Source of the DNA: an uncultured cyanobacterium
Lineage (GTDB): Bacteria > Cyanobacteriota > Cyanobacteriia > Thermostichales > Thermostichaceae
Direction: 5' to 3'
DNA length: 64,000 bases
Assembly: GCA_937944885.1 (NCBI GenBank)
Contig: CALFBB010000020.1
Coordinates: forward strand, 1 to 64,000
Part shown: positions 4,099 to 64,000 of the stretch, piece after piece
Position numbering within the stretch: position 1 is the stretch's first letter
How the letters are laid out: the number at the start of each line of letters is the position of its first letter
Translations under genes and position numbers: made by a program
Notes under the pieces: model-generated
Seen by the model: only the letters and a program-made list of their open reading frames with translations
What the model was told of the DNA's origin: nothing
Database searches by the model: none

Positions 4099-5991
4099 CT
4101 ACTTGGTTTCGGTGAAGTCAGCATCGATGACATCGTCACTTCCACCAGTAGCACTTTTAACATTTCCATCCGGGCTAGAGCCCGCACCGGGCTGCTGGTA
4201 AAGCTCACTACTCATGGCATAGAGAGCCTCTTGCAGGGCGGTTTCCTTGCTTTGGATGGCGCTGTCGTCCTCCCGTTGGATGGCATCGCGCAGTTCTCGG
4301 ATTAGGGTTTCCAGATTGCTGCGCTTGTCAGCAGGGATCTTATCGCCTAGCTCCTTCAACTGCCGCTCCGCTTGGTAAGCCAAGGAATCGGCCTTGTTGC
4401 GCCGCTCGATTTTCTCCCGCCGTTGCCGGTCTTCTGCAGCGAATTTCTCCGCTTCTGCAATCATGCGCTCTACTTCTTTGCTGTCGAGAGTAGAGGCTCC
4501 GGTAATGGAGATGCTCTGCTCCTTGCCGCTGCCTTTGTCCTTGGCGGTCACTTTCAAGATACCGTTGGCGTCGATGTCAAAGGTGACCTCAATTTGGGGC
4601 ACGCCCCGGGGAGCCGGTGGGATCCCATCTAGCTTGAAGCGACCCAAGGATTTGTTGTCGCGGGCCATCTCCCGTTCCCCCTGTACCACGTGGATTTCCA
4701 CGGAGGTTTGCCCATCTTCAGCGGTGGAGAAGATTTCCGACTTACGGGTGGGTACGGTGGTGTTGCGGGGAATCAGCTTGGTGGCTACACCGCCTAGGGT
4801 TTCTACACCCAAAGATAGCGGCGTCACATCCAGCAACAGTACATCCTTCACTTCACCGGCCAGTACACCCGCTTGAATGGCAGCCCCTACCGCCACGACC
4901 TCATCCGGGTTAACACTTTCGTTGGGCTCCTTACCCAACAGCTCCTTCACCAGTCGTTTTACCGCCGGGATCCGGGTGGACCCCCCCACCAAGACCACTT
5001 CGTTAATGTCGGCCTTGGTCAGCTTGGCATCCCGTAGTGCCTGCTCAACCGGGGCTTTGCAGCGTTCAAACAGATCAGCACAGATGTTTTCAAACTGGGC
5101 ACGGGAAAGTTTTAGCTCCAGGTGTTTCGGCCCGTCGGCAGTCGCAGTGATAAAGGGGAGGTTGATGGTGGTTTCAGAAACGCTGGAGAGCTCAATTTTG
5201 GCTTTCTCGGCAGCTTCCGTCAGCCGTTGTAGAGCCTGACGATCGTTGCGCAGATCGATCCCTTCCATCTGTTTGAACTGGTCGGCCATCCAGTCCACGA
5301 TCTTCTTGTCGAAGTCATCGCCCCCTAGTTGAGTGTCACCGCTAGTAGCTTTCACTTCGAAGACGCCATCGCCTACCTCCAGCACCGACACATCGAAGGT
5401 GCCACCACCCAAGTCGAAGACCAGGATGGTTTCGTTGTTGCGCTTATCCAAGCCATAAGCCAAGGAGGCAGCTGTCGGCTCGTTGATAATGCGCAGCACC
5501 TCTAACCCAGCGATCTTCCCGGCATCTTTGGTGGCCTGCCGTTGGGAATCGTTGAAGTAAGCGGGTACTGTGATGACTGCTTGGGTGACAGGTTGACCCA
5601 GGTAGCGGCTGGCATCATCTGCCAACTTGCGCAGCACCATGGCTGAGATCTCTTCTGGGGCAAACTCTTTGTTCAGACGGGGAGCAAACAGCTTCACGTT
5701 GCCGCGCTCATCCCGCTGTACGCGATAGGAAACCCGCTTAGAGTCAGCATTCAACTCATCGTACTTACGCCCGATGAATCGCTTCACCGAGTAAAAGGTG
5801 TTTTCAGGGTTGAGTACCGCCTGACGACGGGCCATTTGGCCCACCAGCCGCTCCCCATCTTTGGTGAAAGCAACCACTGAGGGCGTGGTGCGGGTACCCT
5901 CAGCGTTGGCAATAACGGTGGGGACACCACCTTCCATTACGGCGACAACCGAGTTGGTTGTGCCCAGGTCAATTCCTACGACTTTTCCCAT
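4099..5991 (-). CDS. dnaK: Molecular chaperone DnaK (Hsp70)
   Basis: ATP-dependent Hsp70 chaperone. The 630-residue protein begins [19 protein letters not shown] (phosphate-binding loop 1), has [14 protein letters not shown] and [17 protein letters not shown] for the second phosphate loop, the interdomain linker [13 protein letters not shown], the substrate-binding beta domain, and ends with a helical lid and [12 protein letters not shown]. Length is normal for bacterial DnaK. It is first in a dnaK-dnaJ pair. No CIRCE element (TTAGCACTC inverted repeat) is visible in the 240 bp upstream, so HrcA control is not supported by this sequence. Confidence 0.97.
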
Positions 5992-6233
5992 CGGCTTCCT
6001 GTTCTCCTCTTGATATATCGCTCCGGTTACCGCCGCTAGCCCATCCGCCTTTGTGAAGTGGCTTGGGCAGCCAATTCATGGAATGATTTAACCGTTGACT
6101 GGATTGATCCTAGCCAGTCTGGGATCTCGACTAGGGCGAGAATGCCGCCCATTTCTGGTCTGTTGGTTGCGCTCTAGTTACGGATCTCCGCACCTGTGGA
6201 AAAGGGTTTCCGACCACGAGTGCCGGGAAGCTA

Positions 6234-7316
6234 TCAAACCTGAATTTGCTCCAGGGCTGCCAACCCCCGCTCTACCACTGATTGCTCCAGGGGAAGGTAG
6301 CCCAGTTCCTCTGCCAGGGCTTGTCCTTCGGTGAGGCCCCAGCTCAGCACCGCCCGCAGGGCTTCGGCCATGGCAGGGTTGGGGTACTGGCGGTAGGTCA
6401 AAATCCAGCTGTAAGTAACAATTGGGTAAGCGTCTATCCCAACCGGATCCGGGATGAAGGCCCGCAGGTTCTCAGGCAGCTCCACCTCGCTCAGGGCTAT
6501 GGCTGCCGATTCTAAGGTGGGTAAAATGTACTGACCGGCTTGGTTTTCCAGAGCTGCTACAGTTAGATTCAGATCGCGGGCATAGACGAATTCCACATAG
6601 CCGATCACCCCTTCACTGAGGAGCATCTGGGCGCTCATGCCTTCGTTGCCCTTGACCCCAATGCCAACCGGCCACTCCAGGGACATGCCAACCCCAATTT
6701 CCGCTCCCCAGGAGGGGTCGATGGCGTTCAAGTGGCGGGTAAAGGTATCGGTGGTGCCACTGCCGTCGGAGCGGTAGCAGACGTCAATGGGTAAATCGGG
6801 AATCTCCAGGTCGGGGTTGAGAGCCAAAATGCGGGGATCCCGCCAGGCGGTGATGCGACCGCGGAAGATATCCACCAACACAGAACGGGAGAGCTTTAGC
6901 CCGGAGGGGACTCCCGGTAGGTTGTAGCCGATAGTAATGCTGCCGGCTGTCATCGGGATCATCACCACCCCCCGTTTCACTTCGGCTATCTCGGCATCGC
7001 TGATGGCTACATCACTGGCGGCAAAATCCAGGGTATTGTCGATAAATTGACGGATCCCGGCGGCACTGCCCACCGGCTGATAGTTGATCTCTAGCTGCGG
7101 ATCCACCTGGCGGTAGTCGGAAAACCAGCGTAGGTAAAGGGGGGCTGCGAAGGTGGAGCCTGCCCCGTTGATCAGCAGGAACTCTTGGCTAGAGCGCACA
7201 AAGGGATTTCCGGACTGGTTAGAACGGGATCCTCCCCTCTGACAGGCGCTTAGGGTTGTGGTGGCCAGCAGAGAGAGCAACAAATCGCGGCGACGGAAAC
7301 GGGGCAGTTGGGCCAT
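6234..7316 (-). CDS. pstS: PstS-family phosphate-binding lipoprotein
   Basis: Periplasmic phosphate-binding protein of an ABC importer. From ATG 7316 (preceded by GGAG nine bases upstream) it is 360 residues with an N-terminus FRRRDLLLSLLATTTLSAC: a twin-arginine-like motif and a lipobox with Cys25. The PstS fold is shown by NGAGSTFAAPLYLRW, the phosphate loop RSDGSGTTDTFTRHL, and the hinge VTYSWILTYRQY. No pstCAB genes are in the window, so it may be an orphan high-affinity binding protein. It lies 64 bp downstream of the propeller gene on the same strand, and both may be driven by the Pho-box-like site at 8841-8859. A GTG at 7337 is an alternative start. Confidence 0.85.
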   Translation of the reverse strand: MAQLPRFRRRDLLLSLLATTTLSACQRGGSRSNQSGNPFVRSSQEFLLINGAGSTFAAPLYLRWFSDYRQVDPQLEINYQPVGSAAGIRQFIDNTLDFAASDVAISDAEIAEVKRGVVMIPMTAGSITIGYNLPGVPSGLKLSRSVLVDIFRGRITAWRDPRILALNPDLEIPDLPIDVCYRSDGSGTTDTFTRHLNAIDPSWGAEIGVGMSLEWPVGIGVKGNEGMSAQMLLSEGVIGYVEFVYARDLNLTVAALENQAGQYILPTLESAAIALSEVELPENLRAFIPDPVGIDAYPIVTYSWILTYRQYPNPAMAEALRAVLSWGLTEGQALAEELGYLPLEQSVVERGLAALEQIQV

Positions 7317-7380
7317 GGTTAAGTTCTCCGAGAGCACCGCCCCGATCCTTGACTTGGGTTCCTGGAGATGTCAAGCCGTT

Positions 7381-8784
7381 TTATTCCACCGTAATACCTA
7401 CCAGGCTAAGACTGTTGTTTTTGGGGTTCGAGATCACCACCAAGTTGCGCTCAGGGATAAACTCAATCCCTTCCGGCTCCAGCTCAGCCGCTTTGTCTTG
7501 CCCGACGATGCCGGGGTTGAGGATCACGCTATCCAGAAGCTGGATGTTGGCCGGGTCGGTGATGTCGTGGATGGTGATGGCATCGGAGCGTTCAATGGCC
7601 ACAAAAGCCAAGGTACGTCCATTCACCTCACCCACGCTCACCACCTCTGGCTCTGGGCCTTTACTGTTGCAGCGCATCGGCAACTGAGCAGCAATGATCG
7701 CCTCCTCAATGCTGTCACCGCTATCTCCTAGCAGTGCTCCTGTTTTGGCATCGTAAACACTGATGCTGCGGCTGCCGTGACGACTGAGGGGTACCTCCCC
7801 ATGGGTTTGCTTGTTGACGGCGGTGAGGTTATCTTCATCCGCTGTAACCAGGTAACGGCCATCAGGGGTAATGGCGATGCCATCCGGTTCGCGGGCGGAG
7901 GTAAACTCCTGACGAGCAGTCAGATCGTAGGCACTAGAACGACACTTGCCCTCCCCAACTTTGTCTTGGGTCAGTCCTGAACCGGTGCGGATCCCGGCGT
8001 CGAAGTTGGTGACGGTAAAGGCATCTGCTCGCAAGGGGGTGGGCAATTTGGCAGGAACCTCAACGCGGGCAATGGCATTGTTTTCCTGTAACGTCGCCAC
8101 GATAAAGGAGTTGTCGGGGGCGATGCGCACTGTTTCCGGCTGTGGATCATGAGGGAAAAACGGGATCCCTTCCGGTGGAATGGGAATTTCCACTTGGCTC
8201 ATCAGGGTTGGCCCGTTGCGCAAGTCGATGATGGAGAGGGTACCGGGGCGGTTTTCTAGGTTGGTGAGATCCTCTTCGTTTTCTTCATCTTCGTTGGCTA
8301 CCACGGCAAACTGACCGTTGGGGGCAATGGCGACTGAATCCGGGCCCCGTCCCACCTGAACTTGGCCAATTACTTTGAGATCCGGTAAAGAGAGGGCCAA
8401 AACTTTGCCGGGTACCTCATCAAAGGTGTCTAGGTTGGCCTTGTCGTCATCTTTAACGGCAACTAGGGCAAAGGTGCCGTCCGGGCTGATGGCCACACCG
8501 GTAAACTCTGCTGCTGTCGAGTTTTCCGGCAGGAAGGTATCTTCCAGCTCATAGGTACCCCGCACAGAGAGACCGTCATCAGCAATATCCACCAGGGTGA
8601 CGGTGGTGCTACCGGCAACTACGGTGAAGGCCCCATCCTTGGAAACCGCCAGCATCTCGGCTCCCCCCAAGCCTTCCAGGGTAGCGATCAACTCACCCTT
8701 GACTGCAGCGCCGGCCTGAGCCACAGCCAGGCTGCTCAATCCTAGGCTCAACACCAGGGATCCCACAATTGTCCTCTTCAACAT
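7381..8784 (-). CDS. Secreted beta-propeller protein, choice-of-anchor-I-like
   Basis: The 467-residue protein has a classic signal peptide (MLKRTIVGSLVLSLGLSSLAVAQAGA). Repeated blade motifs follow, such as GVAISPDGTFALVAV, SVAIAPNGQFAVVAN, GIAITPDGRYLVTAD and PEGIEFIPERNLVVIS. The combination KGPEPEVVSVGEVNGRTLAFVAIERSDAI resembles choice-of-anchor-I / esterase-phytase-like propellers. It is presumably periplasmic or extracellular. Its position upstream of a pstS-like gene and downstream of a Pho-box-like site suggests a role in phosphate acquisition, for example a phosphoesterase or phytase-like activity. That is inference; no catalytic residues are identified. Confidence 0.75.
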   Translation of the reverse strand: MLKRTIVGSLVLSLGLSSLAVAQAGAAVKGELIATLEGLGGAEMLAVSKDGAFTVVAGSTTVTLVDIADDGLSVRGTYELEDTFLPENSTAAEFTGVAISPDGTFALVAVKDDDKANLDTFDEVPGKVLALSLPDLKVIGQVQVGRGPDSVAIAPNGQFAVVANEDEENEEDLTNLENRPGTLSIIDLRNGPTLMSQVEIPIPPEGIPFFPHDPQPETVRIAPDNSFIVATLQENNAIARVEVPAKLPTPLRADAFTVTNFDAGIRTGSGLTQDKVGEGKCRSSAYDLTARQEFTSAREPDGIAITPDGRYLVTADEDNLTAVNKQTHGEVPLSRHGSRSISVYDAKTGALLGDSGDSIEEAIIAAQLPMRCNSKGPEPEVVSVGEVNGRTLAFVAIERSDAITIHDITDPANIQLLDSVILNPGIVGQDKAAELEPEGIEFIPERNLVVISNPKNNSLSLVGITVE

Positions 8785-8840
8785 CCTCCAGAAGCTCCTC
8801 AGATTGTGGTCTTGGTTAGCCTTGCTACTTTACACCTGTC

Positions 8841-8859
8841 ACATTAAGTTGCGGTTAAT
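8841..8859 (-). promoter_or_regulatory. Candidate Pho box upstream of the propeller-pstS pair
   Basis: On the minus strand two 8-mers, ATTAACCG (8859-8852) and CTTAATGT (8848-8841), are separated by exactly 3 bases. This matches the cyanobacterial Pho-box layout (PyTTAAPyPy[TA] repeats with 3-base spacers) bound by SphR/PhoB, with the first base of the first repeat deviating. It sits 57 bp before the ATG of the propeller gene. A third, weaker unit (AGGTGTAA) follows at the same spacing. Confidence 0.5.
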
Positions 8860-9234
8860 TCCCCTTCTCGGCACCTGGGAGGGCAACCCCAGTGGCCCTC
8901 AAGTCCCATCGATCTGTCCTTTTCTGTCAGGATGGGCTGCCCTGGGGGGTAAAAGTTGGGATCCAAACCAAGCCAGTGACAGCAACACGAAAGATAGAGC
9001 ATTTCTGAGAAAATAAAAGATAAAACGAGCAAAAAAGAGCTTGTAGAAGTTTGATATTGACTCAAGTGTGCCGGAATACCTGAGCCAATGCCTTACCTGG
9101 CAAGGCTTAGCCGGTTTTGGCTGTGAATGGCTCTTCTCAGGAAAAATCTTGACGTATTCCAGAAAAAGGCAGTAAATTGTAGTTTCTGTGCAGAAATCCT
9201 GCGCTGTTCACATCTCGGTATCTGGGGGACTACT
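8860..9234. other. speA leader region with two hairpins
   Basis: No gene seen. Two adjacent inverted repeats precede speA: GCCTT/AAGGC at 9090-9106 and AGCC/GGCT at 9109-9122. They could form a structured leader, but neither is followed by a clear U-run. An in-frame extension of speA back to 9127 exists but has no family similarity. A 73-codon minus-strand frame at 8844-9065 lacks protein-like character and was not called. Confidence 0.3.
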
Positions 9235-11154
9235 ATGCCGACTTTGACTCGTTCTCCCTGGACACTGCGAGACAGCGAAAAGCTCTATCGCATCTCAGGT
9301 TGGGGGGATCCCTACTTTCGTATCAACGCCGCCGGTCATGTGGAGGTAACCCCGCAGGGCATGCAGCAGGAGTCAGGTATTGACTTGCACCAATTGGTCA
9401 TGGACTTGGTCGCTCGCGGTCTGCAGTTGCCGCTGCTGATCCGGTTTCCGGAAATTGTGGCGGATCGGATGCGGCGCATTTGTGGCAGCTTTGAGCAGGC
9501 GATTGAGCGCTTGGGTTACCCGAATGTTTATCGCGGGGTTTATCCGGTTAAGGTGAATCAGCAGCGCCACTTGGTTGAGGAAGTGGTGAACCAAGGCCGC
9601 CCCTATCATTTCGGCCTAGAAGCGGGCTCCAAGCCGGAGCTATTGATTGCCTTAGCGCTTCTGGATACCCCTGAGGCGTTGCTGGTGTGCAACGGCTACA
9701 AAGACCGTGACTTTATGGAAACAGCCCTCTTGGCACAGCGGTTGGGGCGCACCCCGATCATTGTCCTGGAGCGGTTGCAGGAGCTGGAATTGGTTCTAGA
9801 AGCTGCCGAGAAACTGGGGATTGACCCAATTTTGGGGGTACGGGCCAAGCTGTCAGCACAAGGGATTGGGCGCTGGGGGAGTTCCGCCGGGGATCGAGCT
9901 AAATTTGGCCTGACAGCTACGGATATTTTGCAGGTGGTGGAGCGGTTGCGGGGAGCCGGTAAGCTGCATTGCCTGCGACTGTTGCACTACCACATCGGTT
10001 CGCAAATCTCAATGGTGAGTGTACATGGGCGGGCGGTACGGGAAGCCAGCCAGATTTACATTGAGCTGGTGAAGCTGGGTGCCCCCATGGGTTACCTGGA
10101 TATTGGGGGTGGGTTGGGCATTGATTACGACGGATCCCAGTCCACCAACCCTTCTTCCCAAAGCTATAGCCTGGAGGACTATGCTGCCACTGTAGTGCAG
10201 ACAGTATTGACTGCCCTTGAGCCGTATGGGATCCAGCCACCCGTTTTGGTAACCGAAAGTGGGCGGGCTTTGATGTCTCATCAGTCGGTCTTGGTCTTTG
10301 ACGTGCAGGATATCAACGCTGCCAGCCCCTACCCAATGCCTACGGAGATCACCTCCGATGCTGAGGTTATCCAAAAGCTAAACCAGCTCTACTCTGAGAT
10401 TCAGCCGGAGACCCTGACTGCCGATTATCGCCGCTGCCAAGAGCTGAAAGAGGCTGCCCTGCGCCAGTTCACAGAGGGATCCCTGAGCTTGCAGGAGCGG
10501 GCTCAAGTGGAGCGGCTGTTTTGGAATTGCTCCGACAAGATTTGCACCTTGGCCTACGAGCAGCACCAGGCAGGGCATCCGGTTTCTGTGGATCTTCTGG
10601 ATCTGGACGAGATGTTAGCTAGCATCTACTACGGCAATTTCTCTTTGTTCCAGTCTTTACCGGATAGCTGGGCTATTGATCAGGTCTTCCCGATCATGCC
10701 GATTCACCGCCTCGATGAAGAACCACGCCAATGGGCTACCTTGGCGGACCTCACCTGCGACAGTGATGGCAAGATCAACCGCTTTTTCGGTGACGATGGA
10801 CAGATTACTTCCGTCTTGCCCCTACACAATCCCGATGGGGAGCCTTACCTATTGGGGGTATTTTTAGGAGGTGCTTACCAAGAGATCTTGGGGGATCTGC
10901 ACAACCTATTTGGGGATACCAACGCTGTCCATATCCGCTCCCGCCCTGGTGGATACCATGTGTCTCAGGTGATTAAAGGGGACACAATCAGCGAGGTACT
11001 CAGTTGGGTGCAGTACAACAGTGAGGATCTGGTGGAAGCCATCCATCATGCCACCGAAGCCGCTTTACAGCAGGGGCAAATCAGCTTGTCGGAGGCACGC
11101 TCTTTGCAGCGGCACTTTGAGGACAACCTGCGGGCTTACACCTACTTGCACTAG
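9235..11154 (+). CDS. speA: Biosynthetic arginine decarboxylase
   Basis: PLP-dependent enzyme converting arginine to agmatine, the entry to putrescine and spermidine in cyanobacteria. From ATG 9235 the protein has 639 residues, the usual SpeA length; GGGGG lies 8 bases upstream, and the longer in-frame start at 9127 adds residues unlike the family. Visible motifs: YPVKVNQQ with the PLP lysine at about residue 106, LLHYHIGSQIS, the glycine-rich GGGLGIDYDGSQS, and the C-terminal block SWAIDQVFPIMPIHRL followed by LTCDSDGKI. The other polyamine genes speD and speE are at 39.4-40.8 kb. Confidence 0.96.
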   Translation: MPTLTRSPWTLRDSEKLYRISGWGDPYFRINAAGHVEVTPQGMQQESGIDLHQLVMDLVARGLQLPLLIRFPEIVADRMRRICGSFEQAIERLGYPNVYRGVYPVKVNQQRHLVEEVVNQGRPYHFGLEAGSKPELLIALALLDTPEALLVCNGYKDRDFMETALLAQRLGRTPIIVLERLQELELVLEAAEKLGIDPILGVRAKLSAQGIGRWGSSAGDRAKFGLTATDILQVVERLRGAGKLHCLRLLHYHIGSQISMVSVHGRAVREASQIYIELVKLGAPMGYLDIGGGLGIDYDGSQSTNPSSQSYSLEDYAATVVQTVLTALEPYGIQPPVLVTESGRALMSHQSVLVFDVQDINAASPYPMPTEITSDAEVIQKLNQLYSEIQPETLTADYRRCQELKEAALRQFTEGSLSLQERAQVERLFWNCSDKICTLAYEQHQAGHPVSVDLLDLDEMLASIYYGNFSLFQSLPDSWAIDQVFPIMPIHRLDEEPRQWATLADLTCDSDGKINRFFGDDGQITSVLPLHNPDGEPYLLGVFLGGAYQEILGDLHNLFGDTNAVHIRSRPGGYHVSQVIKGDTISEVLSWVQYNSEDLVEAIHHATEAALQQGQISLSEARSLQRHFEDNLRAYTYLH

Positions 11155-58989: not shown

Positions 58990-59571
58990 TTAGGGCCTCA
59001 GCAAATCGGCAGCGCCGGTGCCAGGAATCAGCAAGCGCTGCACCGGTGTGGAAGTTGGACGAGGGGCAACAGGCTCAACATCCTCAGGAATATACAAAGG
59101 GGTCGGGTTGGGATCCCCGCCTAAAGCCAGCAAAATGGCCTTCAGAAGAGCTTGCCGCTGTTGTCGGTTCAGAGACTGTATGACGGCTTTATCCTGTGCG
59201 TAGGGATTCACCGTCAGCCGGTCGGCACCAGGGTAGCGCTGGGCAATCATCGGCTCGTTGGCATCAAAGTAATCAGCTAAGGTGAGCTGCCAATCAAAGC
59301 GGTCGGTTAGGGAACGACCCGCCACCTGCAGGTGATACACCATCATCCGCCGCACCAGGGTATCTTCTTCTGGAGATGGGCCACTACCGTCTGGAGACAC
59401 GTAAGTACTCTCGAGGGGAAAATCCGGCAACATACTGTATACCTGCCGAGCTGCCTCTGGAATCAACCGCAACTGAGCTTGGACAGGCCGAACTCCCCAA
59501 ACCCAGAGGATGCCTAGGGTAATGCCCAAAAGGGGAAGTTGCCACTTTTTCACTCGCTTGTCCCAATTCAT
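58990..59571 (-). CDS. Conserved secreted cyanobacterial protein
   Basis: 193 residues with an N-terminal signal peptide (WQLPLLGITLGILWVWGVRPVQAQ). The mature part has LESTYVSPDGSGPSPEEDTLV, RRMMVYHLQVAGRSLTDRFDW, LADYFDANEPMIAQRYPGAD and NRQQRQALLKAILLALGG. No named family known to me. The proline-rich C-terminus may be disordered. It is 23 bp upstream of... no operon partner; herA lies downstream on the same strand with its own upstream genes, so it is probably separate. Confidence 0.6.
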   Translation of the reverse strand: MNWDKRVKKWQLPLLGITLGILWVWGVRPVQAQLRLIPEAARQVYSMLPDFPLESTYVSPDGSGPSPEEDTLVRRMMVYHLQVAGRSLTDRFDWQLTLADYFDANEPMIAQRYPGADRLTVNPYAQDKAVIQSLNRQQRQALLKAILLALGGDPNPTPLYIPEDVEPVAPRPTSTPVQRLLIPGTGAADLLRP

Positions 59572-59594: not shown

Positions 59595-61319
59595 CTAATC
59601 GATACTTAAACCTTCCACCCTCTCAGCTTGAGGACGCGGTTGCAAAGGAGCCGATTGGAGCAGCCGATCCTGCTGACGGTGAGTTTGAAAGTGGTTTTGC
59701 CAGAGACCAAGAATATCCAGGGTTTCCCCACCGTGTCGGGTGTAACGCTGCCGCACTTTACAGAGTACCGGTGTGTTGACACATACCCCAGAAACAATCA
59801 CTTGCCCTTTACTTAAAGCAGGCAGTTCTTGTAGCAAATCTCGTCCAGCTGCCTCGACACTGTGGCGTAAATTTTCTTGGTCAGAAGGATTGACAATCCG
59901 CATCAAAAACTGGCTCATACACTGGGATAAAATATCAGAATCTAGCTTGCCAGGGCGCTGTGTAATTAGCCCTACTCCCAAACCAAACTTACGCCCTTCA
60001 CTAAGAATTGTTCGCAACACCTGCTTACAGCGAGAGGGTTCATGAGCAGGGGCAAATCGATGAGCCTCTTCTAACAAAATGAAAACAGGATAGGGTAGAT
60101 AATTCTCATCCCTTGGCTCAATCTTACCCTTGTGGGTATTGATGCGAGCATGGTTAGCCTGCCGCAAAATAGCCGCAGCAATGACCTGTTGCTCCTCTTG
60201 GCTAATTTCATTCATCTGTAAAATGGTTACCTGCCCCGGCTCAAATAAATCTTTAGGCGATAAATGTTCCAAGTTGCTGAAATAAGGAGAGCGCTCAATC
60301 TGTTCCAATTTCCACTCTAACGCTGCAGCTGAGGATCCCTGGGATCCATCTTCTGCAGAATCTTCCTCATTGACAGCATCGATTAAGTCTCGAATCGTCC
60401 AACGCACCGGATTCAAGTGGATGGTGTTGCGAAAAGCCTTTTCCAGAAAAGACTTTTGTCGTTCGGTCATTTCCGGCAGCAGGGTGAGAATATCAAAAAA
60501 GTTGAGGGAGGAAACGCGGATTTTAATCTCTTGAGGGGAGAGTACCCTAACTTTAGGACGATACCCATCTTCACCCAAGAACTGAGGATGAGACTGCATT
60601 TCTGCTAAGGTACCATACTCACCATGAGGATCGAAAATAAGAACAGCAGCGCGATTTTTGGGTAGGAGTAGCTCTTCGATCAGCACCCCTGCTGTATAGG
60701 ATTTACCAGATCCTGTACCTGCCAAAATGGCTAGGTGTGTACTAACCATTTCCTTGACATCCAGTACCACGGGCACGGCACCATCATCCCGCAACAGCAG
60801 GCTACCCAAGTGAGCTCCGCCCACTGCTGTCTTATCTCGCTTATTCAAGACGGAGCTCAGCAGTTGATTGGAAGCCAGAAAGACTTTGGTACCCGGATCT
60901 GGGGCACGACGAGGGTTGATAAAGCCCATAGCCCGATGAAAATAGCCGATCACCTCCACGGTGACGGCATAGATTTCCGGATTGGGATGGGTAAAACCTA
61001 CCAAGGCTACAATTGCACTCGGATCAATTTCCGTATCGGCAAAAATACGATCGGGAATGTGATCCAACAGTTGTACTTGGCTAATTTTCCCTAGAATTTG
61101 CAGCAACTGGGATTGGGAATCCTGAACTTCGTAATAGACAAATTCACCCACCTTCACTGCTTGGGTGTTAGAGGTGATGAATACATATTGGTTGGAAGTT
61201 TCTCCAGGGCCTTTGACCGTGCCGATTACCTCCGGAGAGCTATTGAACAAAGAAAGGGTAGCCTCCTGGTAGTGGCCATTGCTGATTGGCTGAGGAGTAT
61301 CTATAGCTCTTTTTGGCAT
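59595..61319 (-). CDS. herA: HerA family DNA-translocating ATPase
   Basis: 574 residues. N-terminal HAS-barrel (about 30-110: VIGTVKGPGETSNQYVF), then a FtsK-HerA ATPase: Walker A ILAGTGSGKSYTAGVLIEE (about 199-217), Walker B YPVFILLEEAHRFAP (409-423), the sensor/arginine region VGLITQRPGKLDSDILSQC, and C-terminal PALSKGQVIVSGV. HerA hexamers pump DNA and work with NurA in end resection; in several bacteria HerA-NurA pairs act in phage defence. Its ATG shares one base with the stop of the upstream gene (TAATG), indicating coupled translation. Confidence 0.94.
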   Translation of the reverse strand: MPKRAIDTPQPISNGHYQEATLSLFNSSPEVIGTVKGPGETSNQYVFITSNTQAVKVGEFVYYEVQDSQSQLLQILGKISQVQLLDHIPDRIFADTEIDPSAIVALVGFTHPNPEIYAVTVEVIGYFHRAMGFINPRRAPDPGTKVFLASNQLLSSVLNKRDKTAVGGAHLGSLLLRDDGAVPVVLDVKEMVSTHLAILAGTGSGKSYTAGVLIEELLLPKNRAAVLIFDPHGEYGTLAEMQSHPQFLGEDGYRPKVRVLSPQEIKIRVSSLNFFDILTLLPEMTERQKSFLEKAFRNTIHLNPVRWTIRDLIDAVNEEDSAEDGSQGSSAAALEWKLEQIERSPYFSNLEHLSPKDLFEPGQVTILQMNEISQEEQQVIAAAILRQANHARINTHKGKIEPRDENYLPYPVFILLEEAHRFAPAHEPSRCKQVLRTILSEGRKFGLGVGLITQRPGKLDSDILSQCMSQFLMRIVNPSDQENLRHSVEAAGRDLLQELPALSKGQVIVSGVCVNTPVLCKVRQRYTRHGGETLDILGLWQNHFQTHRQQDRLLQSAPLQPRPQAERVEGLSID

Positions 61320-61912
61320 TAGCGCATAGCTCCGATTGTCATCTTCCAGGACAGTTCTTTGCTCAGAATCTGTAGGGCCCGCTGTTGAGCTGGATCTACA
61401 AACATTGGAGTGATATCATTCAAAACTTGATAAATCAGATGCTCAGCAAAATTGCCACCGTTGTTCATCAGCAAACCATAGTAGGAGAACTGGGTTTTCC
61501 CTTCGGGATCCTGATGAAAGCCTAGGATTTCCTCTTGACTCATGCGAAAAACAGGGGTGTTTATAGGCACCACCACGCGCGGGATCCCTTGCTTACCATA
61601 GCCATACTGTTCATCCAATGCCCCAATCAAAACCACAGAAAGCAGGGTGCGCACTTCATTTTGCAAATCCGGTGAAAAATATGGATCTGGCTCACTGGAC
61701 AGGCGGGGCCCAGAATTGAGAAACATAGGGTTCAAGAGCTGGGTGTTATAGACCAAGCCGACTGCCCAATGACGTTGCTCATCTTCCAGTTTGACGAAGC
61801 TACCGAAGCCGTAATCATCAGGAGCTGGAGGATTTTTAACTTCTAGAGCATCATCTACTTGCACCACATAGTCGCAGTGATTGTTGGAGCGAACCACTTT
61901 GCCCAGTCTCAT
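61319..61912 (-). CDS. Uncharacterised 197-residue protein between NurA and HerA (HAS-barrel-like start)
   Basis: I do not recognise a named family. The first ~70 residues (LGKVVRSNNHCDYVVQVDDAL, YGFGSFVKLEDEQRHWAVGLVYNT) resemble in layout the HAS-barrel at the start of HerA. The rest is mixed alpha/beta with EVRTLLSVVLIGALDEQYG, IPRVVVPINTPVFRMSQEEI and a helical C-terminus ILSKELSWKMTIGA. No catalytic motif is evident. Its start overlaps the nurA stop by 4 bp (ATGA) and its stop overlaps herA by one base, so all three are made together. It may be an adaptor linking NurA and HerA. Confidence 0.85.
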   Translation of the reverse strand: MRLGKVVRSNNHCDYVVQVDDALEVKNPPAPDDYGFGSFVKLEDEQRHWAVGLVYNTQLLNPMFLNSGPRLSSEPDPYFSPDLQNEVRTLLSVVLIGALDEQYGYGKQGIPRVVVPINTPVFRMSQEEILGFHQDPEGKTQFSYYGLLMNNGGNFAEHLIYQVLNDITPMFVDPAQQRALQILSKELSWKMTIGAMR

Positions 61913-63102
61913 CGCATCCGCCTCCGCTGCAGTTTACTTACCGTTTTACGAGACAGGCGTAAGTTGAGTTTCTCACGAGCTGCCCAATCTTGGATCAGAC
62001 GCAAAAATGCATTGCGATCTTCAGCACGAATCAAAGCCGTTTGATCAGCAGTTTCAATCACATAAGGGTAGCCTCGCCCAATCACCACTTCACTGCGGAC
62101 AACATCCACCAGCCAATCCAAAAGGCCGGCTTCATGAACCCAAAGGGGAATTTCCAGGCGAGCTGGGAAGTTGTCACTGGTACGTAAGTAGACAAAGCCG
62201 ATCCGTTCTCGCATTTCTTGGTAGCAATTGAGGATGCCTTCCTGGGGATTAAGACCACCCGCACGGGCACAGATGAAGAAGGGTGTACGATCCCCCCAAT
62301 TTAGCCAGGGGCTAAGCAATTGTGCATCGTGAAGTTGTGGAGCATCAGGTAAATCAAAGCAGTATTTGAGCAAGGAAACCAGATCAGAGGTGTAGGTGGT
62401 GTCAATGTAGGCCACCAGTGGGATCCGCCTTTGTTGACTAGCCCGCAGCACCGACAGTAGGCACTGCACATAGAAGTCTTGAACCTCCGGCTCAAAGGCT
62501 TCGGCAAAAGTAGCCACTAGAGCCCCATCCAAAAAGGCTAATTTCCGGGATCCCGGCTCTGATTGTTGGATATACTCGTACAGCCTTTCAGTTTCCATTT
62601 GGAAGCGACGCTGATTAACGATTCGTTCTTTAGGCTCCCCACTGCTGTTGGCACTCAAGTCATTTGGACTGAGGACATCCACTTGAATATCTTTTTGGTA
62701 ACTGCCTTGAGCAGAGTGATGGTTCTCGTACCAGCCAATCTGGACTAAAGCAACGGGAATAGAGATGTCTTTACTTGGATAAATCTGGGATCCATCTACT
62801 GCAAAAGTGGAGATACCCTGGATAACCGATTTAACCCATTCACAGCTTTCTTCGTAGTTGCTCCATTGCTGTGAAAAAGGCACCTTCCAACTTCGGTATA
62901 CTTCCCATTCAGCAGTGGGTAGAGACCCTGGGAACATGAATGAGGCTGTCTTTTCGGCAATCTCCAATGCTGACCATTTACATAATTGCTCCATGGCCTG
63001 TCTGTACAAGTCTCTTCGTTCCGACAGACTGCTGTCAAACGTAGCGAAGGCTTCACGCTTCTGATTTAAAACAGCCAGGATGCGATCCGTTCTAAGCACC
63101 AT
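61909..63102 (-). CDS. nurA: NurA domain nuclease
   Basis: 397 residues. NurA is a Mn-dependent 5'-3' exonuclease with an RNase H-like core that acts with HerA. Metal-binding motif one is FAVDGSQIYPSKDISIPVAL (Asp103); motif two LAFLDGALVATFAEAFE (Asp192). The central region YIDTTYTSDLVSLLKY and the late YPYVIETADQTALIRAEDRN match the family layout, with length near the usual 330-400. The start overlaps the stop of the Rad50-like gene by 11 bp. Confidence 0.9.
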   Translation of the reverse strand: MVLRTDRILAVLNQKREAFATFDSSLSERRDLYRQAMEQLCKWSALEIAEKTASFMFPGSLPTAEWEVYRSWKVPFSQQWSNYEESCEWVKSVIQGISTFAVDGSQIYPSKDISIPVALVQIGWYENHHSAQGSYQKDIQVDVLSPNDLSANSSGEPKERIVNQRRFQMETERLYEYIQQSEPGSRKLAFLDGALVATFAEAFEPEVQDFYVQCLLSVLRASQQRRIPLVAYIDTTYTSDLVSLLKYCFDLPDAPQLHDAQLLSPWLNWGDRTPFFICARAGGLNPQEGILNCYQEMRERIGFVYLRTSDNFPARLEIPLWVHEAGLLDWLVDVVRSEVVIGRGYPYVIETADQTALIRAEDRNAFLRLIQDWAAREKLNLRLSRKTVSKLQRRRMR

Positions 63103-64000
63103 AAGAGGGATCCCTCCTTCCTATGGTTGAGTCAAAGCTCCTTTCCAGCCAAATCACATTTTCTGTGACTTGCTCAAAAGTATCATCATGGCTAATCACA
63201 AACAGTTGTTGGAAGGAACGCAGATGGGTAATCGCTTCTGCCAATCGTTGCCGTCGTTGTCGATCCATATTGGTGGTGGGTTCATCAAAGAAAGCAATAT
63301 CCAGCTGTCCCAAAACCTTTAACAAAGCTAGGCGCACTGCCAAAGCTGCACACATTTGCTCCCCGCCGGAAAGGCTAGCAAAGCGTCGCTTCGTGCTACT
63401 GCCCTCTTGCACGCGGATTTCATAGTCTGGTTCCCAAGTTAGACTGACGTTGGGACGGTTAAGGATCTCTCGAAACAGTTGATCAGCAGTATGGTTGATC
63501 TGCTGTAAATAGTATTGGGTAACCTTTGGGCCAGCCTTTTTATAGACCTCTCGACTAAACTTAATAAACCGATGTAGTCTCTCCCTTTTAGAGCGTTCTG
63601 CTTCTAATTCTTTAAGGGTATCTTTCACCTGTTCTAGCTGCTGTATTTTTTCTTGTATTCTTATAAGCTGAGGTGTAAGATTTTCTAGATGTGCCCTGGC
63701 TTCCACCTCCTTAATCTTGGCTGCCTGGAGCAGAGTTTTACAACCTTCGTAGTCCTCCGATTGTAACTGGGAGATGAGTGGATCCTTTTGGGCATGAAGC
63801 TGAGCAATCTGAGTTTGTAGAGTATGCTGCTGTGCTTTTAGGCCCTCCAGAGTTTTCTCTCGTTCCGGTAGCAGCTGAGCAATTGCCTCAGCTTGTAGAT
63901 AGCTCTCGTGGATAGGCCGGTATCGATCCCGTTGTTGTTGCAGGGATCCGATTTCTTGTTCTAGAGGCTCAGTTTCCAAAAGAAACTTTTGTAGCTGTTC
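63092..64000 (-). CDS. Rad50/SbcC-like SMC ATPase, C-terminal part (continues beyond window)
   Basis: The frame is open to the right edge, so only the C-terminal ~300 residues are present. A long coiled coil (about 150 residues: LKAQQHTLQTQIAQLHAQKD, RIQEKIQQLEQVKDTLKEL) leads into the ATPase C-lobe: signature ASLSGGEQMCAALAVRLALL, Walker B LDIAFFDEPTTNMDRQRR with the D-loop, and the H-loop QLFVISHDDTFEQ. This is the Rad50/SbcC pattern. The zinc hook and N-lobe are off-window. First visible gene of the rad50-nurA-X-herA operon; an Mre11/SbcD partner could lie upstream at the right. Confidence 0.92.
   Translation of the reverse strand, partial: EQLQKFLLETEPLEQEIGSLQQQRDRYRPIHESYLQAEAIAQLLPEREKTLEGLKAQQHTLQTQIAQLHAQKDPLISQLQSEDYEGCKTLLQAAKIKEVEARAHLENLTPQLIRIQEKIQQLEQVKDTLKELEAERSKRERLHRFIKFSREVYKKAGPKVTQYYLQQINHTADQLFREILNRPNVSLTWEPDYEIRVQEGSSTKRRFASLSGGEQMCAALAVRLALLKVLGQLDIAFFDEPTTNMDRQRRQRLAEAITHLRSFQQLFVISHDDTFEQVTENVIWLERSFDSTIGRRDPSYGA

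Follow-up and report, generated by a model that had tools for sequence, protein, structure and literature searches.

Near the end of a 64,000-nucleotide stretch of DNA from an uncultured cyanobacterium of the Thermostichaceae (the window, positions 1-64000 of contig CALFBB010000020.1, which reaches position 75,435 in a 2.8 Mb assembly), the genes for the nuclease NurA and the DNA translocase HerA are separated by a gene for a 197-residue protein, here called X, and the question that this locus raises is what X does beside these enzymes. The first-pass annotation, made from the sequence alone, had proposed that X is a free-standing HAS-barrel that serves HerA and NurA as an adaptor or regulator. 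We propose, with a probability of about 0.7, that X is an obligate fifth subunit of a DNA-end-processing machine composed of Mre11-Rad50 and HerA-NurA.

A check of the open frames placed four genes, all on the minus strand, exactly where they had been drawn before: herA (574 residues, 59595..61319), X (61319..61912), nurA (397 residues, 61909..63102) and the C-terminal 302 of the 1197 residues of the Rad50/SbcC ATPase (63092..64000), whose gene is cut by the window. Open frames and junction sequences alike bear out the overlaps of 11 bases between rad50 and nurA, 4 between nurA and X and 1 between X and herA; the NurA/X junction (CGATGAG) and the X/HerA junction (CTAATG) are stop/start overlaps, and GGAGG-like ribosome sites precede nurA and X, with a weaker site before herA. 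These overlaps suggest translational coupling; overlap alone does not prove the fixed product ratios that the first reading had considered probable. Past the window edge rad50 is whole (63092-66685), and an mre11/sbcD gene, which the first-pass annotation had suggested looking for beyond position 64000, lies one base upstream of it at contig 66687-68024 (445 residues, with metallophosphoesterase motifs); in the numbering of locus L003, rad50 occupies 5093-8686 and mre11/sbcD 8688-10025. Judged from this layout, the unit is a single operon, mre11-rad50-nurA-X-herA. The closest named relative, Synechococcus sp. M44_DOE_062 (locus L054), has the same five genes in the same order with the same 11-, 4- and 1-base overlaps, and its X is 88% identical; this conservation, together with the 210 relatives of X confirmed in sequenced genomes, argues that the arrangement is not due to chance. 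To judge by this relative, the host is probably a hot-spring Synechococcus of the JA-2-3B type.

The four known enzymes were identified by their domains. HerA combines a HAS-barrel with a DUF87/RecA-like core (Pfam DUF87, E=3.3e-55) and shows conservation of its Walker A and Walker B regions across 11 orthologues; its Pfam HAS-barrel match is weak (E=1.1e-3, residues 33-127, under the curated cut-off of Pfam), and the NCBIfam model helicase_HerA scores 206 bits, under its equivalog cut-off of 970. NurA matches Pfam NurA with E=8e-52 (176.7 bits against a cut-off of 21), and its acidic residues D103, D192, D234 and D353 are invariant in 20 orthologues. The part of Rad50 inside the window matches Pfam SMC_N and SbcC_Walker_B, which marks it as a Rad50/SMC-type ATPase; neither this Rad50 nor that of M44_DOE_062 has a CxxC zinc hook, whereas the haloarchaeal Rad50s described below carry CPTC.

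Distribution of X and its partners in the phylum

We searched 386 genomes of the phylum, calling this HerA at E<=1e-60, and found X and HerA in exactly the same 22 genomes, which belong to 11 families and more than one class. The threshold is not a delicate one, since orthologues of this HerA score E<=1e-167 and the next HerA-like paralogue has an E of at least 7e-26. Two extra matches to X (G122, G244) are partial, contain internal stops and were set aside as noise. Mre11 of this type is present in all 22 X-positive genomes and in none of 20 comparison genomes of the phylum, and NurA of this type in 21 of the 22 and, again, in none of the 20. Were family labels independent, a match in 11 of about 38 families would arise by chance with a probability of about 1 in 10^9; since families are not truly independent, this figure serves as a guide only. 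The phylogenetic profile supports the suggestion that X partners HerA and NurA, and X, far from being absent from most related herA-nurA loci as the first-pass annotation had allowed it might be, is present wherever this HerA is.

Most of the 20 comparison genomes carry a different, widespread NurA. The window's genome has a copy of that one too, a second NurA-family gene elsewhere in the genome (contig C27; locus L004 6626-7987); most of the Cyanobacteriia sampled have this second type together with a distinct HerA-like ATPase, and cyanobacteria may have two HerA-NurA systems. RecB was considered as a complement of the X set, but full-length recB, absent from X-positive Cyanobacteriia, is patchy in the negatives, and no conclusion was drawn. 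We also noted that recA was not found in the window's assembly (95% complete); it is present in both same-genus genomes and is probably just missing from the assembly.

The genes that co-occur so strictly are mostly unlinked within Cyanobacteriia, where, of 80 X loci in named genomes, 77 have no partner gene within the fetched flanks (10 kb or less on each side of X); co-occurrence is therefore not a by-product of shared position. The operon is real at this locus, and the genes are adjacent in the genus of the window's host, but the earlier picture of one cyanobacterial operon does not extend further, as the cluster is atypical and the genes are scattered in most cyanobacteria. In one genome (G089) they lie at four separate loci. 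Outside the class, three genomes keep adjacency (NurA-X-HerA in G021, X-HerA in G053 and G041), and X stands directly before herA in every locus where both are linked. This distribution suggests an old cluster that was dispersed later. Around unlinked X genes no gene family occurs in more than 16 of 79 loci, which we read as clade synteny; no X set was found in viral contigs and phage records, and the plasmid search found none on cyanobacterial plasmids.

Several neighbouring genes were recorded along the way. Two genomes outside the class have, upstream of nurA-X-herA or X-herA, a gene for a patatin-like phospholipase (L021 6653-8092, L023 7072-8313), and in a Thermosynechococcaceae assembly (L061) a Rad50-like gene (4657-7437) precedes X (10001-10597) by about 2.5 kb and may be what is left of the old cluster. 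In the window itself, 23 bases downstream of herA, a minus-strand gene (58990..59571) encodes a 193-residue protein with a hydrophobic N-terminus that has no match in Pfam, NCBIfam or PADLOC; a homologue is found at the same place in M44_DOE_062 and in none of the other loci tested, and the protein is probably a neighbour, not a part of the system.

Predicted fold and placement of X

X matches no family in Pfam, NCBIfam or PADLOC. The Pfam HAS-barrel profile (PF09378) matches none of 52 X homologues up to E=10, the best hit among PDB sequences has an E of only 0.21, and the one PHROGs member that matched, at E=0.02, was disregarded. An AlphaFold2 model computed with the 52 homologues (mean predicted local distance difference test [pLDDT] score 90, predicted template-modelling score 0.84) has strands at residues 2-9, 14-19, 39-43, 48-60, 88-99, 106-108 and 120-123 and helices at 126-132, 145-151, 153-170 and 174-196. 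The order of the strands parallels that of the HAS-barrel in the model of its own HerA (31-38, 44-49, 60-66, 72-85, 116-128, 132-134 and 145-148), which is of modest confidence with a mean pLDDT of 64; a helix follows the barrel in each protein, and X has a helical tail where HerA runs on into its ATPase core. Comparison of the X model with the PDB by Foldseek gave HerA as the name of 38 of the 50 matches listed, the other 12 being an anti-phage complex (3), TdpAB (5) and an unnamed bacterial protein (4). The best E was 4.1e-6, most of the matches listed align over about 130-140 columns, and the template-modelling scores of 0.39-0.47 on query length are those expected if the barrel alone matches.

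The model and the fold matches support a description of X as a free-standing HAS-barrel of about residues 1-123 (61544..61912, minus strand) followed by a helical part of about residues 124-197 (61322..61543, minus strand) that replaces the ATPase of HerA; the corresponding barrel of HerA itself spans residues ~31-148 (60876..61229, minus strand) by its Pfam match and modelled strands. Structure prediction, which might have returned no HAS-barrel at all, led instead to HerA barrels; the fold given in the first-pass annotation is supported, but its extent was too short, having been confined to the first ~70 residues. The resemblance of the two barrels is visible in fold comparison only and in none of the sequence methods used, so that common descent of the X barrel and the HerA barrel is likely, short of demonstrated.

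HAS-barrels form the NurA-binding face of the HerA ring in Deinococcus and archaeal complexes (PMC9960219, PMC12977600), and in D. radiodurans the HAS-barrel of HerA contacts NurA (PMC9960219). Because X has the predicted fold of the HerA barrel and its gene lies between nurA and herA, the simplest placement for X would be at this face. In the mechanism that we envisage, the HerA translocase, the NurA nuclease, Mre11-Rad50 and X would act as one DNA-end processor, in which X would bind the barrel/NurA face of the HerA ring, or dock beside the ring, and would adapt or gate the loading of NurA, and via NurA that of Mre11-Rad50, on DNA ends. The helical tail would be the partner-specific part. 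X may bridge, space or gate the complex, and it may touch Mre11-Rad50.

Haloarchaeal plasmid cassettes and the weighing of explanations

A translated plasmid search revealed homologues of X, with 24-29% identity along the alignment and a best E of 2e-18, on four plasmids of haloarchaea, in all four records directly upstream of herA. Three of them encode metallophosphoesterase-SMC ATPase-NurA-X-HerA, exactly the order mre11-rad50-nurA-X-herA; the fourth record opens shortly before X and has a NurA-like remnant ahead of it. When the haloarchaeal HerA was used as query, these four records came up and no further ones, so that this HerA is accompanied by X on each plasmid that carries it. The haloarchaeal HerAs match the window's HerA with 391-436 bits, compared with at most about 91 bits for other cyanobacterial HerA-like ATPases. 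On plasmid unnamed4 of Natrinema zhouii (L181 1-11261 and L277 11830-19001) the five-gene cassette directly follows a TerB-ATPase-helicase set, about 200 bases after the helicase, which is SngC of Shango (905 bits); on the plasmid of the halophilic archaeon DL31 (L183 1122-11306) SngC stands at the corresponding place, again about 200 bases before the cassette (895 bits), and GajB-like and methyltransferase genes lie downstream. Cassette and Shango genes may form one composite defence locus. Haloferax volcanii has neither HerA nor NurA (PMC7776575), which argues that the cassette is no general haloarchaeal housekeeping set.

These plasmids speak for the best placed of the rival explanations, which we nevertheless consider unlikely, namely that the five-gene set is primarily directed against viruses or plasmids, HerA pumping invading DNA into NurA, Mre11-Rad50 sensing ends and X being the sensor or switch, and that in cyanobacteria it is a fixed chromosomal defence. 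The three complete haloarchaeal copies are plasmid cassettes, two directly after SngC and one of these after a full Shango set; HerA teams with other nucleases in anti-phage complexes (PMC11291478), and work on Thermococcus published in 2026 makes a case for its HerA-NurA as antiviral (PMC12977600). In cyanobacteria, however, the genes lie apart and have been retained jointly in at least 11 families, viral contigs and cyanobacterial plasmids yielded none of them, and the window's HerA scores 94.5 and 89.8 bits with the NCBIfam anti-phage HerA models, far under their cut-offs of 850 and 800. A mobile or defence-island setting was seen in none of the cyanobacteria examined, and the earlier hint at phage defence draws support from the archaeal plasmid copies only. 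Scattered genes that many families have retained jointly and that were not found in viral contigs or phage records fit housekeeping DNA-end processing, and housekeeping break processing is the likely role in cyanobacteria; repair and defence can both be functions of one machine.

Slightly less probable again is a role for X as a stand-alone barrel in the same pathway, for example on DNA ends or single-stranded DNA, with no stable HerA or NurA complex. The HAS-like barrel of BrxHI is classed with DNA-binding small beta-barrels (PMC12839542), and a contact of X with HerA or NurA, whether as adaptor or as regulator, is something that we infer; the nearest folds, however, are specifically HerA HAS-barrels and not OB or SH3 folds, and X immediately precedes herA at linked loci. 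That the perfect co-occurrence reflects nothing but the shared ancestry of an old gene set that each clade retained or lost, X having no functional tie to it, is highly improbable, for although the profile genomes all come from one phylum and their counts are not independent events, the set is scattered in most members, which points to joint loss by function and not to a single-block deletion, and 11 families are positive and the gene order is matched in archaea.

Set against the reading of X as an obligate fifth subunit are, besides the inferred nature of its contacts, one X-positive genome (G041, a draft with 7% contamination) with no detectable NurA of this type, the result of hhalign, which gave no sequence relation of X to HerA (nor to NurA), and the Deinococcus and thermophilic archaeal HerA-NurA systems, for which no X is described (PMC9960219, PMC12977600). 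The comparison of gene-tree distances also calls for caution: the correlations with X beyond RecA and RuvB (NurA 0.79, HerA 0.57, Mre11 0.51; in a 12-genome subset with the control NurA paralogue, NurA 0.78, HerA 0.66, Mre11 0.44, paralogue 0.40) carry no formal significance and involve few control genes, and they fit a partnership of X with NurA and HerA weakly. A fuller version of the fifth-subunit reading, in which the order kept between cyanobacteria and haloarchaeal plasmids would reflect a five-subunit DNA-end machine whose X forms or caps the HerA-NurA interface and couples Mre11-Rad50 to it, we hold tentatively, at a little under even odds.

Comparison with known HerA-NurA systems

The HerA-SIR2/Nezha and HerA-DUF4297 anti-phage complexes share with this locus a HerA with a nuclease partner, and the HerA chains of these complexes rank among the best fold matches of X; they differ in that the nuclease here is NurA, not SIR2 or DUF4297, that a separate HAS-barrel subunit is present and that this HerA falls far under the cut-offs of the HerA_antiphage models. 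With the HAS-barrel domain PF09378, X has its predicted fold in common and differs in failing to match the profile of that domain at any reported E-value, in being free-standing and in its helical tail. Deinococcus-Thermus HerA-NurA is likewise a bacterial pair, but D. radiodurans has no Mre11-Rad50 (PMC12977600), and no X partner is mentioned in its descriptions (PMC9960219, PMC12977600).

How HerA-NurA and Mre11-Rad50 are coupled is openly disputed, and so is the question of repair or antiviral defence as the task of HerA-NurA (PMC12977600 versus PMC9960219). X, never seen here without its HerA and recurring in archaea at the same position, offers a direct handle on this coupling, and in those cyanobacteria whose genes lie apart single deletions would leave the other genes undisturbed. 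If the fuller version of our reading is right, X would be a component that current models of HerA-NurA resection lack, and the machine would serve repair in one domain of life and possibly defence in the other. The open-access full texts searched yielded no description of X or of a five-gene version.

The nearest known system is the cluster in which thermophilic archaea encode Mre11-Rad50 and HerA-NurA (Constantinesco 2002 and 2004, as cited in PMC7776575 and PMC9960219), a cluster described as having four genes. The same four enzymes are encoded together there and here, with a HerA of HAS-barrel and translocase core and a NurA domain, and our locus has the sequence features of an end-resection module that were checked: HerA core and barrel, NurA with its acidic residues, and mre11 and rad50 co-encoded, the last of these also in M44_DOE_062. 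A restriction to four components, which is no strict requirement, does not hold here, where nurA and herA are separated by X, which accompanies HerA in 22 of 22 genomes; the host, moreover, is bacterial, and Rad50 has no CxxC zinc hook. Judged from gene content and order, the locus appears to be a new version of the Mre11-Rad50-HerA-NurA module that includes a further conserved component, X.

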